From NCBI GenBank assembly GCA_030418545.1, contig QAIB01000004.1:1-64000 (forward strand): a DNA stretch of 64,000 bases. The letters run 5' to 3'. Below the pieces are notes generated by a model. The model was given only the letters and a program-made list of their open reading frames with translations. It searched no databases and had not been told where the DNA came from. Shown in pieces: positions 39,221 to 45,123 of the stretch (within the stretch, counting starts at the first letter, position 1; each line of letters begins with the position of its first letter). Source of the DNA: Xenophilus aerolatus (lineage in GTDB: Bacteria; Pseudomonadota; Gammaproteobacteria; Burkholderiales; Burkholderiaceae_C). A program made the translations under genes and the position numbers.

Positions 39221-40288
39221 ATGTCCGACACCTTCACCGGCACCACCCCCGTCCGCGAGGGCCACCGCTTCGACGAGACCGCCCTGCGCGACTGGTTCGC
39301 CCTTCGCGTCGACGCCAGCGCCCGCCGCGCCTTCGCGCTGTCGCAGTTCAAGGGCGGGCAATCCAACCCGACCTTCCTCGTGGCCACGGCCGAACGCCGC
39401 TACGTGCTGCGGCGCAAGCCAACGGGCGAGCTGCTGCCATCGGCCCACGCGGTGGACCGCGAGTTCCGCGTGATGCGCGCGCTCGAGGGCACCGGCGTGC
39501 CGGTGCCGCACATGCATGCACTGTGCGAGGACCCTGCCGTCATCGGCTCCGCCTTCTACGTCATGGACTTCGTGGAGGGCCGCATCCTCTGGGACCCGAA
39601 GCTGCCCGGCCTGTCGAACGCCGAGCGCGCCGCGGTCTGCGACGACATGAACCGCGTGATCGCGGCGCTGCACGAGGTCGACGTGCAGGCCGCGGGCCTG
39701 GCCGACTACGGCCGCAGCGGCCGCTACGTGGCACGCCAGATCGACCGCTGGAGCCGGCAGTACCGTGCCAGCGAGACCGAGCGCATCGAAGCCATGGAAC
39801 AGCTCATGGACTGGCTGCCCGCGCGCCAGCCGCCCGAGGGCGCGACGCGCCTGGTCCATGGCGACTACCGGCTCGACAACCTGGTGTTCGCGGCCGATGC
39901 ACCGCGCGTGGTCGCGGTGCTCGACTGGGAACTCTCGACGCTCGGCGACCCGCTGGCCGACTTCGCCTACCACTGCATGGCCTGGCAGCTGCCGCCGCCC
40001 TTCCGCGGCCTGGGCGACCTGGACGACGAGGGCCTGCGCACCCTCGGCCTGCCCACGGTGCCCGACTACCTGCAGCGCTACCTCGGGCGGCGCGGCCTGC
40101 CGGCCATCGACCCCGCCGCCTGGCAGTTCTACGGCGCCTTCAACCTCTTTCGCGCGGCGGCGATCGCGCAGGGGATCCTGGGCCGCGCGCTGGCCGGCAA
40201 TGCGTCCAACCCGCATGCGCTCGAGGCCGGCCGGCAGGCGCGCCAGCTGGCCGAGCTGGGCTGGCGCCACGCGCGCGCCGCGGGCTGA
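39221..40288 (+). CDS. APH-fold acyl-CoA kinase, LvaA/ACAD11 N-domain-like
   Basis: A 355-residue protein of the aminoglycoside-phosphotransferase fold. It has the catalytic LVHGDYRLDNLVF (H213-G-D215) and metal-binding VLDWELSTLGDPLADF (D235). The wording matches the kinase domain of mammalian ACAD10/11 and Pseudomonas LvaA, which phosphorylate 4-hydroxyacyl-CoA, rather than antibiotic kinases. A matching ACAD11-type dehydrogenase is encoded 3.6 kb away. ATG 39221 is chosen because the upstream part of the frame is unlike the family. It probably forms an operon with the VOC-like gene 6 bp downstream. Confidence 0.88.
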   Translation: MSDTFTGTTPVREGHRFDETALRDWFALRVDASARRAFALSQFKGGQSNPTFLVATAERRYVLRRKPTGELLPSAHAVDREFRVMRALEGTGVPVPHMHALCEDPAVIGSAFYVMDFVEGRILWDPKLPGLSNAERAAVCDDMNRVIAALHEVDVQAAGLADYGRSGRYVARQIDRWSRQYRASETERIEAMEQLMDWLPARQPPEGATRLVHGDYRLDNLVFAADAPRVVAVLDWELSTLGDPLADFAYHCMAWQLPPPFRGLGDLDDEGLRTLGLPTVPDYLQRYLGRRGLPAIDPAAWQFYGAFNLFRAAAIAQGILGRALAGNASNPHALEAGRQARQLAELGWRHARAAG

Positions 40289-40294
40289 GACACC

Positions 40295-41029
40295 GTGGGC
40301 GCGGCACATCCGTCCATCGGCCCGGCCCTGCATGGGCTGCGCCTCGGCTTCTCGGCGCTGGAGCCCGCCGCGGCGCTGCTGGAACAGGTGCTCGGCCTCG
40401 CGCCCATCCCGGTCGTGCCACCCGCGGCGGCGGGACGGCCCGCGCGGCGCCACTACGCGCTCGGCGGGCTGCGCCTGGAGGTCCGCAGCGCATCCGGGTT
40501 ACGCGGCCCTGGCGAGAGCCGGCCTGCGAACGTCGACGCCCTGCAGTGGCGCCAGGACGACCTGCCCCATCGACGACGGCACCTCGCCACCCTGGGGCTC
40601 GCGGCGCTCGATGGCGCCGAACTCGGATGTGGCGCCGGCCTGCGCCTGGAGGCGGTGGAGACCGGTGCCTGCGCGGTCGAGCTGCGCGAACCGCAGGATG
40701 TCGTCGTGACGCCGCCCGTGCCCGGCCCGCGCCTGGTCGCCATCGACCTGAGGGTGCGCGCGCCCGAGAGCGTGGCCGTGCATTGGGCGCGCCTGCTCGG
40801 TGCGCCGCTGGGCCGCGATGCCGACGGCGTGCCGCGCCTCGACGTGGCGCCGGTGCCGGTGCGCTTCGTGCCGGCCTCGGCCTTCGAGGGCGCTGGCGTC
40901 GATGCGCTGGTGCTCGCCGGCGCCGACGCCCGGGTCACCGCGCAGCGCGCCGCGGCGCACGGGCTGCCGGTGGAAGGCGACGGTTCGTGGATCGCCGCGG
41001 GCCTGCGCGTGCGGCATTCCCGGCGCTGA
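40295..41029 (+). CDS. VOC-fold-like protein of unknown function
   Basis: A 244-residue protein starting with GTG 40295, 6 bp after the kinase stop. It reads as two glyoxalase/VOC-like halves: LHGLRLGFSALEPAAALLEQ at the start and LVAIDLRVRAPESVAVHWAR in the middle. Few metal-binding residues are evident. It resembles in outline the VOC protein at 51521. Tight linkage suggests a role beside the kinase, perhaps as an epimerase or a binding protein, but no function can be assigned. Confidence 0.65.
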   Translation: MGAAHPSIGPALHGLRLGFSALEPAAALLEQVLGLAPIPVVPPAAAGRPARRHYALGGLRLEVRSASGLRGPGESRPANVDALQWRQDDLPHRRRHLATLGLAALDGAELGCGAGLRLEAVETGACAVELREPQDVVVTPPVPGPRLVAIDLRVRAPESVAVHWARLLGAPLGRDADGVPRLDVAPVPVRFVPASAFEGAGVDALVLAGADARVTAQRAAAHGLPVEGDGSWIAAGLRVRHSRR

Positions 41030-41048
41030 GCCCCGAAACAGCAAAGTG

Positions 41049-41087
41049 CAATCGGCCGCCAGCCCGCCCCGGATGGGCGCTGGCGCC
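41049..41087. repeat. Partial dispersed repeat
   Basis: CAATCGGCCGCCAGCCCGCC followed by GGGCGCTGGCG resembles the right half of the inverted copy at 27092. It lies between the convergent VOC-like and FadB-like genes. Confidence 0.3.
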
Positions 41088-43210: not shown

Positions 43211-43382
43211 AGGCGTCCTTTCAGAGTGGAGCGCCGATGTTCCGCCGCGACGCGCGCGCAGCGCATCAGCGCTCCGAATGCGTCCGATGAAAAGACTGCA
43301 TGGCTCGACGTTCCGGCGCCGGGCCGATGCAGGCACCATCGGGTGCATCCGAACTTTGCCCGGCCTGCGCGCCGGCCTTGCC

Positions 43383-43841
43383 ATGCCCGTCCTGACCCGA
43401 GACAACCTGCAGCAGCACGTCGGCCAGTCGATCGGCACCTCGTCCTGGGTGGAGGTGCCGCAGTCGCGCATCGACGCTTTTGCCGAGTGCACCGAAGACC
43501 GCCAGTGGATCCACATCGACGTCGAGCGCGCCACGCGCGAGAGCCCCTTCAAGGCGCCCATCGCGCACGGCTTCCTCACGCTGTCGCTGCTGCCCATCAC
43601 CTCGTACGAACTGCTGGCGGGCCTCAAGCCCACCAAGTCGGTCAACTACGGCATGGACAAGCTGCGCTTCATGTCACCGGTGAAGGCCGGCTCGCGCGTG
43701 CGCAACCACATCAAGCTGCTGGCGGCCGAGCCGCGCGACGACGGCTGGGTGCTGCTGCGCTGCGAGAACACCGTCGAGATCGAGGGGCAGGACAAGCCGG
43801 CCCTGGTCGCCGTCACGCTGGGCCTGTTCTCCTGGTCCTGA
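43383..43841 (+). CDS. MaoC-like (R)-specific enoyl-CoA hydratase
   Basis: A 152-residue hot-dog-fold protein. [14 protein letters not shown] and [14 protein letters not shown] carry the Asp/His pair of (R)-hydratases. It hydrates an enoyl-CoA with stereochemistry opposite to crotonases. ATG 43383 gives the family start; upstream codons are unlike it. It lies 40 bp before the ACAD11-like gene and is probably co-transcribed with it. Confidence 0.88.
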
Positions 43842-43881
43842 TTCCCTTTTCCACACATCGCCGCACACGAAAGAACATCGC

Positions 43882-45123
43882 ATGGACTTCAACCACAGCC
43901 CCCGCGTCCAGGACCTGCGCGAGCGCCTGCTCGCCTTCATGGAAGAACACATCTACCCCAACGAGCAGCGGCAGGCCGAGGAGGCCCACCAGTCCTACCT
44001 CAACGCCGTGAAGAACAGCGGCCGCTACACCGGCCTGCCGCTGATGGAGGAGCTCAAGCCCAAGGCGCGCGCGGCGGGGCTGTGGAACCTGTTCCTGCCC
44101 GAGGCGGAACACGGGCCGGGCCTCACGAATCTGGAATACGCGCCGCTGTGCGAGATCATGGGCCGGCGCTACTGGAGCGCCGAGGCCTTCAACTGCAGCG
44201 CGCCCGACACCGGCAACACCGAGGTGATCGCGCGCTACGGCAACGCCGAGCAGAAGGCACGCTGGCTGCAGCCGCTGCTCGACGGCGAGATCCGCTCCGC
44301 CTTCGCGATGACGGAGCCGGCCGTGGCATCGTCGGACGCCACCAACATCGCCACCCGCATCGAGCGCCGGGGCGACGAGTACGTCATCAACGGCCGCAAG
44401 TGGTACATCACGGGCGCGATGAACGAGCGCTGCAAGCTCTTCATCCTGATGGGCAAGACCGACCCCGACAACGCCGACCGCCACCGCCAGCAGTCGATGA
44501 TCATCGTGCCGGCCGACACGCCCGGCATCACCGTCAAGCGCGACATGGCGCTGGTCAACCACTTCGACGCGCCCTTCGGCCACCCGGAGGTGATCTTCGA
44601 GAACGTGCGCGTGCCGGCCGCCAACATCCTGCTGGGCGAGGGCCGCGGCTTCGAGATCGCGCAAGGGCGCCTGGGCCCCGGCCGCATCCACCACTGCATG
44701 CGCATGATCGGCATGGCCGAGTCGGCGCTGGAGATGATGTGCGAGCGCGTGGTCTCGCGCGTGGCCTTCGGCAAGCCGTTGTCCGAGCAGGGCGTGTGGC
44801 GCGAGCGCATCGCCAGGGGCCGCATGCTGATCGACCAGACGCGCTGGATGGTGCTGCACGCCGCCTGGCGCATGGACACGGTGGGCAACAAGGTGGCGGC
44901 CAAGGAGATCGCGATGATCAAGGTCATCGCGCCCAACAACTGCATCCAGGTGATCGACGACGCGATGCAGGCCTTCGGCGCGATGGGCCTGAGCCAGGAC
45001 ACGCACCTGGTGAACTTCTGGGCCTATGCGCGCCACCTGCGCGTGGCCGACGGCCCCGACGAGGTGCACCGCAACGCGGTCGCCAAGCAGGAGCTGGCGA
45101 TGTACCGCCCCAAGGTGGCCTGA
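43882..45123 (+). CDS. ACAD10/11-type acyl-CoA dehydrogenase (LvaC-like)
   Basis: A 413-residue flavoprotein whose wording follows the dehydrogenase domain of mammalian ACAD11: [57 protein letters not shown] and ADGPDEVHR. In those enzymes and in LvaC this domain removes phosphate from 4-phosphoacyl-CoA made by the APH kinase, giving an enoyl-CoA for beta-oxidation. Here kinase (39221) and dehydrogenase are separate genes on the same strand, with hydratases between or near them. Confidence 0.92.

Follow-up and report, generated by a model that had tools for sequence, protein, structure and literature searches.

The window analyzed here is a 64,000-nucleotide stretch of Xenophilus aerolatus DNA (GenBank assembly GCA_030418545.1, contig QAIB01000004.1, positions 1 to 64,000, forward strand). 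Within it lie a predicted 4-hydroxyacyl-CoA kinase and an acyl-CoA dehydrogenase (ACAD) resembling ACAD10, ACAD11, and LvaC, both part of a catabolic island of ~25 kb with synteny in Xenophilus, Pseudacidovorax, and a subset of Variovorax. The two genes are as follows:

39221 to 40288, plus strand: predicted APH-fold 4-hydroxyacyl-CoA kinase, a window-type paralog of 355 aa (APH match, ACAD11 kinase-domain match, and kept residues)
43882 to 45123, plus strand: ACAD of the ACAD10/11-LvaC kind, predicted 4-phosphoacyl-CoA eliminase, 413 aa (best match, tree, and residues)

An initial annotation, made from the sequence alone, had read these genes as an APH-fold kinase and an ACAD11-type dehydrogenase on the same strand and 3.6 kb apart, and both the family matches and the open reading frame positions confirmed this. 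The kinase frame runs for 355 codons from the ATG at 39221 to the stop at 40288 and matches Pfam APH with 199 bits. Its HGD motif occupies residues 213-215, as annotated; the LDWE motif is also present, but at 234-237 rather than 233-236. Against the PDB, the kinase matched 3dxp best (418 bits), followed by the kinase domain of mouse ACAD11 (252 bits) and 9o56 (157 bits). The ACAD, whose motifs include stretches of 11 residues at 145 and 10 residues at 265 as well as ADGPDEVHR at 389, matched 4hr3 with 450 bits and mouse ACAD11 with 419 bits, while the best ordinary (medium-chain) ACAD reached only 136 bits.

According to a 2025 structural study of ACAD11, R626, H634, and R637 hold the 4-phospho group, R631 is common to ACADs, and D753 is the base, while the key residues of the kinase are D220, N225, R176, and an Arg beside the Glu of helix C (PMC12440821). 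Mouse R626, R631, H634, R637, and D753 correspond to R263, R268, H271, R274, and D390 in the window ACAD, where the Arg/Arg/His/Arg set lies on one helix and the catalytic Asp is present. The window kinase keeps D215, N220, R172, and R80-E81, the equivalents of mouse D220, N225, R176, and the helix-C Arg-Glu; the residue named R86 in PMC12440821 is Phe in the chain numbering used here, and the Arg preceding the Glu (84 there) was taken instead, by description. Alignment with ACAD11 revealed no loss of kinase active-site residues. The kinase set was intact in 18/18 window-type rows (15 distinct) and in 60/60 and 4/4 rows of the other two identity groups, and the ACAD set was intact in 47/47 window-type rows (46 distinct) and 62/62 other ACAD11-type rows. 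"Window-type" denotes an ACAD at least 73% identical to that of the window in these residue counts, at least 74% in the locus survey, and at least 71% in the search of 399 genomes described below.

Quick trees, with SH-aLRT (approximate likelihood ratio test) support only, placed the window-type kinases in a clade of their own (SH-aLRT 99, 18 rows) and the window-type ACADs in their own clade on a long stem (SH-aLRT 100, 47 rows). The ACAD tree included 32 of the 62 other ACAD11-type rows and separated the window ACAD from three ordinary ACADs of its genome (SH-aLRT 100), with the outgroup on very long branches and, as the tree program warned, joining 4hr3. Clustering with ordinary ACADs was not seen, and we rejected the reading of the window gene as an ordinary ACAD on the basis of the bit scores (419 vs. 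136), tree placement, and kept residues. By best match, tree, and residues, then, kinase and dehydrogenase are of the LvaA/LvaC-ACAD10/11 kind that the initial annotation had proposed, the likeness to LvaA and LvaC being drawn through ACAD11. Via this homology, phosphorylate-then-eliminate chemistry is well supported for the window pair.

The window-type ACAD departs from other ACAD11-type ACADs at eight well-conserved sites. Y49, F232, and F365 (H to F) are among these, and several of the changes are mild, e.g., S to T and V to L. In four comparisons, dN/dS was 0.04-0.18 for the ACAD, 0.14-0.32 for the kinase, and 0.29-0.80 for VOC1, the gene directly following the kinase; the ACAD changed more slowly than the kinase in all four, and VOC1 was the loosest. 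Xenophilus sp. E41 (L115) encodes an ACAD with 100% identity to the window's, which marks the genome as Xenophilus-like within the Comamonadaceae.

The same genome (5.84 Mb) holds a standard pair, in which kinase and ACAD are adjacent (contig C11, 997302-999657) and are 55 and 62% identical, respectively, to those of the window. At an E value of 1e-30, this copy was the one further kinase of its kind in the genome, and the only other close ACAD (62%) adjoins it, the next-nearest ACAD being 33% identical. Since the sole other kinase and the sole other close ACAD are neighbors, the association of the two is more than chance. Judged from sequence, the window pair is a divergent paralog of the standard pair, in clades of its own. 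Among 60 genomes, namely that of the window and those around it, 43 gave a kinase of this family at 1e-30 or better; a standard kinase is therefore common. Window-type kinases were present in 12 of the 15 congeneric genomes, counting the window's own and one conspecific. Among 399 genomes of the family, with the best few candidates per genome scored, a window-type ACAD (at least 71%) occurred in 12 and a window-type kinase (at least 73%) in seven, all of which also hold the window-type ACAD; an eighth kinase match (62%) was in a genome without an ACAD above the cut-off. An origin of the pair on plasmids was considered and rejected: the 202 plasmid records matching the kinase (limit 1e-40) are all below 60% identity, and of 123 records matching the ACAD (limit 1e-100), none exceeds 80% and the best listed is 64.7%.

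We also surveyed 80 named loci of 275 relatives found; these loci and the genome samples may share assemblies, and counts from the one are therefore not independent of those from the other. A window-type ACAD (74-100% identical) occurs in 47 of the 80. A kinase of 72% or more is visible in ten of these, a kinase of 47-62% lies nearby in three Rhizobacter loci, and in eight the contig stops inside fadB, leaving the kinase side out of sight. The other 26 ("orphan") loci show no kinase within the flank examined, with short flanks in seven (L110, L117, L119, L122, L129, L132, and L135) and an upstream flank below 4.6 kb, the kinase distance in the window, in four (L117, L119, L122, and L132). Genome searches covering 14 of the 26 orphan genomes recovered no window-type kinase (0/14), while all 14 contained a standard-type kinase (54-56%, none above 57%) and likewise a standard ACAD (63-65%). 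These counts derive from the locus survey and not from the labels of the ACAD tree, in which L190, L191, L193, L194, and L201, labeled orphan, are the same genes as the kinase-bearing L109, L111, L136, L114, and L131.

No shared metabolic theme was apparent among the neighbors of the orphan ACADs in six of the 26 loci inspected, which encode NUDIX, FUSC, glutamate dehydrogenase, alginate-lyase-like, zinc alcohol dehydrogenase, AraC, and chromate transport proteins. A relative of the island's LysR regulator adjoins the orphan ACAD in L106 (68%) and L133 (50%), adjoins the kinase in Rhizobacter L131 and L137 (48-49%), and lies near the non-window-type ACAD of two Duganella loci, L140 and L145 (55%); the LysR regulator seems to have been a partner of such enzymes for longer than most of the island. 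MaoC stays beside the ACAD in L098 and L117, two loci without a visible kinase.

The remaining genes of the island are:

28013 to 29629, minus strand: AMP-forming acyl-CoA ligase 1 (family match)
29638 to 31976, minus strand: PimC/PimD-like heteromeric ACAD pair (TIGR03204, 395 bits, and TIGR03203, 372 bits, both below cut-offs)
32021 to 33491, minus strand: Liv-type ATPases LivG and LivF (open reading frames; syntenic in relatives)
33488 to 35449, minus strand: Liv-type permease, LivH and LivM regions in one frame (UrtB/LivH- and UrtC/LivM-like matches)
35449 to 36702, minus strand: periplasmic binding protein 1 of the Liv-type importer (open reading frame; syntenic in relatives)
36722 to 37972, minus strand: periplasmic binding protein 2 of the Liv-type importer (family match)
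38178 to 39080, minus strand: LysR regulator, divergent from the kinase (family match)
40295 to 41029, plus strand: VOC1, predicted fast-evolving VOC-fold protein of 244 aa (structure model and Foldseek)
41117 to 43210, minus strand: FadB-like hydratase/3-hydroxyacyl-CoA dehydrogenase, about 697 aa, start uncertain (ECH_1, 3HCDH_N, and 3HCDH)
43383 to 43841, plus strand: MaoC-type enoyl-CoA hydratase, 152 aa, 40 bp before the ACAD (68.6 bits)
45133 to 46812, minus strand: AMP-forming acyl-CoA ligase 2, start chosen by us (AMP-binding, 266 bits; length from synteny comparison)
47012 to 47746, minus strand: GntR/FCD regulator (family match)
47787 to 48608, minus strand: enoyl-CoA hydratase/isomerase 1 (family match)
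48612 to 49388, minus strand: short-chain dehydrogenase/reductase (SDR), candidate LvaD-like 4-oxo reductase or 3-hydroxyacyl dehydrogenase (family match)
49418 to 50209, minus strand: enoyl-CoA hydratase/isomerase 2 (family match)
50239 to 51423, minus strand: CaiB-type class III CoA-transferase family protein (below all family cut-offs)
51521 to 52330, plus strand: VOC2 (Glyoxalase_3; weak methylmalonyl-CoA epimerase match)
52351 to 53547, plus strand: PimC-like ACAD large subunit (TIGR03204, 420 bits, below cut-off)

The MaoC, FadB-like, and ligase genes are thus nearby, as the initial annotation had stated. The interval between kinase and ACAD holds VOC1 and MaoC on the plus strand and the FadB-like gene on the minus strand. 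The best solved relative of the large subunit in the PimC/PimD-like pair is 4x28, a steroid side-chain enzyme; this kinship hints at a bulky substrate. The LivH- and LivM-like permease parts share one open frame of 653 codons (33488-35449), as if fused. The genome G003 has the island without FadB at this place, and 15.6 kb of G004 yielded LysR and no other gene of the upstream part. A literature search, at the level of listings, found no papers on this island.

A second fadB copy elsewhere in the genome encodes a protein 82% identical to the island FadB. The eight named contigs that break within fadB are L092, L094, L099, L102, L103, L112, L113, and L115. The contigs of G002, G009, and G011 (perhaps partly the same assemblies) stop 0.4-0.7 kb past VOC1, and in G012 the kinase side enters an 81% fadB with different neighbors, its ACAD being on a separate contig. 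Possible causes of these contig ends are a repeat that interrupted the assembly and recombination of one fadB copy with the other. Elsewhere in the window are an Rfam anti-hemB small RNA (7836-7926, minus strand, 64.7 bits) and a trimeric autotransporter-like frame with YadA-type head and stalk repeats (54556-56718, plus strand).

VOC1 had no match in Pfam or NCBIfam, and a sequence profile search with it recovered no VOC protein. An AlphaFold2 model built from 11 sequences (pLDDT 77.3, pTM 0.80) was searched with Foldseek and returned extradiol dioxygenases, HPPD, and other VOC proteins with a probability of 1.00 in the 50 rows listed, at TMq values of 0.38-0.61 (mostly 0.5-0.6), identities of 8-18%, and large root-mean-square deviations. 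VOC1 is therefore predicted, from its model, to belong to the VOC superfamily of paired beta-alpha-beta modules. VOC1 comes directly after the kinase in 11/11 loci measured, at a spacing of -4 to 14 bp (6 bp in the window). In Pseudomonas putida, the small protein LvaB is reported to be required together with LvaA and to interact with it (PMC6692424), and one might guess at an LvaB-like role for VOC1. VOC2 aligned weakly with methylmalonyl-CoA epimerase (28 bits), and its structure model was too poor for use (pLDDT 53).

Considering the families, residues, clade membership, and synteny observed for the pair and its island, we think it likely that the pair is a specialized second set of 4-hydroxyacyl-CoA kinase and phosphate eliminase, with changed acyl specificity, serving an acid that is imported and activated. 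The substrate, transport, order of steps, and change of specificity are what we infer from this arrangement, whereas the two enzyme reactions are modeled on published, assayed relatives. The island would import a carboxylic acid and activate it with a CoA ligase. The resulting acyl-CoA would bear a hydroxyl at C4, or perhaps gain one by SDR reduction of a 4-oxo group, as LvaD does. By analogy with the assayed enzymes, the kinase would use ATP to phosphorylate the C4 hydroxyl, and the ACAD, with FAD but no net oxidation, would eliminate phosphate to yield the 2-enoyl-CoA. MaoC and FadB could then hydrate and oxidize this product, with thiolysis after, and the PimC/PimD-type dehydrogenases and the hydratases may carry out further rounds.

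Several observations weigh against this proposal. Since the FadB-like gene lies between them on the opposite strand, kinase and ACAD cannot be within one operon. Nor did we identify a thiolase gene in the island. Besides the 26 of 47 loci with no kinase in the flank examined, 5 of the 12 ACAD-positive family genomes have no kinase above the cut-off, two of these matching Rhizobacter loci whose kinase is 63 or 47% identical; a local kinase is thus not always needed. Two kinases and two ACADs per cell leave room for redundancy, and the eight changed sites of the ACAD mean that its chemistry may have shifted. If redundancy were the answer, the window pair would act on the substrates of the standard pair, and the island would serve ordinary fatty-acid or dicarboxylate catabolism, as might be suggested by mapped active-site residues that are all identical in the two pairs and by the mildness of several of the eight differences. 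However, identities of only 55 and 62% to the standard copies, separate supported clades, and regulators and neighbors of its own that are kept in three genera make this unlikely. That the ACAD has turned into an ordinary acyl-CoA dehydrogenase, and that the kinase acts on another small molecule, appears very unlikely: the contexts without a kinase and the changes giving Y49, F232, and F365 would fit, but R, R, H, R, and D are kept in 47/47 rows, the catalytic residue is Asp where Glu is usual, and the kinase retains Arg172 and Arg80.

It is possible that the window-type ACAD is an eliminase fed by any cellular 4-hydroxyacyl-CoA kinase, mostly the standard one, and that a local kinase was added later in a few lineages, which would be compatible with the chemistry proposed here. 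The orphan loci agree with this, as do the orphan genomes, whose kinases are all at or below 57% and which all hold the standard ACAD, and the slower change of the ACAD in 4/4 comparisons. However, wherever the window-type kinase exists among the 399 genomes the ACAD accompanies it (7/7), kinase loss from an old pair would give the same pattern, and four of the 26 loci have flanks that end short of the kinase's place. More speculatively, and in our view doubtful, the window-type ACADs might constitute a second ACAD11-type eliminase clade, spread through Comamonadaceae and relatives, for bulky or branched 4-hydroxyacyl-CoAs (e.g., from terpenoid, steroid, or naphthenic acids), with the 4-phosphoacyl-CoA coming from the housekeeping kinase or from a kinase of its own helped by VOC1 in the manner of LvaB. 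If this were true, kinase and eliminase would be freely exchangeable parts. The pair makes it possible to test concretely how widely, past levulinate and lipids, the phosphorylate-and-eliminate route for 4-hydroxy acids extends, and whether the two enzymes have to be a matched set; the eight sites that set the window-type ACAD apart offer a short list for specificity work. Beyond this, the finding adds to a pathway known from bacterial and mammalian work.

Among known systems, the P. putida lva operon (LvaA-LvaG and LvaR) and the island both group a kinase, an ACAD, an SDR, and a CoA ligase regionally. However, the operon has a sigma54-type LvaR and contiguous lvaABCDE, whereas the island has LysR and GntR regulators, places kinase, FadB, and ACAD on alternating strands, is not contiguous, and adds an ABC importer, MaoC, FadB, PimC/D-type ACADs, and VOC proteins. 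LvaB presumably corresponds to DUF6285 (PF19802), for which the window's genome gave no match and which is present in 4 of 185 genomes of the class. We therefore rejected identity with the lva operon, given the absence of DUF6285 and the differing regulators and gene order. The DUF6285 loci were also rejected as a source of LvaA/LvaC, since three of the four stretches held only distant kinases (29-31%). In L088 (6349-7779), a 477-codon frame combines a distant kinase match (29%) with DUF6285, as if fused, and L090 has a similar frame with no kinase match inside. The Pseudomonas citronellolis region, as described in PMC6692424, likewise lacks lvaB, indicating that LvaB is not universal, and has a histidine phosphatase beside its LvaA homolog.

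Mouse ACAD11 (PDB 8v3u/8v3v) and ACAD10/ACAD11 more generally contain a homologous kinase and ACAD with all mapped catalytic and phosphate-binding residues in common, but in the mammalian proteins both domains are fused in one chain, while the window has two separate genes. The initial annotation had treated this split as special, a view that did not survive: a split Burkholderia kinase (Q63VL0) and ACAD reportedly could stand in for the ACAD10 domains in vitro (PMC11342911), PMC6692424 describes lvaABCD homologs in Alpha-, Beta-, and Gammaproteobacteria, and X. aerolatus itself has the adjacent standard pair. The assayed Burkholderia pair consists, like the window pair, of two separate proteins, a likeness drawn from its published description (PMC11342911).

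Other kinase-ACAD arrangements were found among the related loci. A congener without the window-type kinase (G005; L073-L076) has five wider-family kinases, several near ACAD or CaiB-like genes. In L080, L081, and L082, kinases of 55-57% lie near an SDR and an ACAD 34-35% identical to the window's, which is another kinase-ACAD pairing. Acidovorax and relatives (L146, L148, L153, L157, L162, and L165) have SDR-ACAD11-ligase runs with no kinase match in the flank examined, the upstream flanks of L146 and L165 being only about 1 kb.

The importer and the VOC proteins had been described by the initial annotation as partners outside the known systems. This held for the VOC proteins, seen beside the pair solely in this island among the loci examined, but not for the importer, because livF/livG/livHM-like genes (26-43%) and ACAD11-type genes are no more than about 9 kb apart in L063, L146, L148, L157, and L162. 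Among the closest arrangements are ligase-SDR-(kinase)-ACAD11-FadB clusters of other Burkholderiales (L063, L155, and L157), which share with the island a ligase, an SDR, and a FadB of 62-65% identity; their ACADs (63-65%) fall outside the window clade, L157 has no kinase match, and the stretches examined gave no VOC, MaoC, or PimC/D match. L063 and L157 have Liv-type importer genes, as in the island, and, unlike it, a thiolase gene. More widely, other Burkholderiales have FadB-like genes (61-65%) beside their ACAD11-type genes, as do sphingomonads, Citreicella, Mameliella, and Paracoccus at 41-44%. In Massilia (L154), a standard-type pair, with a histidine-phosphatase gene directly before the kinase, lies beside MaoC (51%) and a PimD/PimC pair (45 and 52%). 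MaoC, FadB, ligase, and importer genes thus recur around such enzymes in other combinations, which points to the beta-oxidation of an unusual acid.

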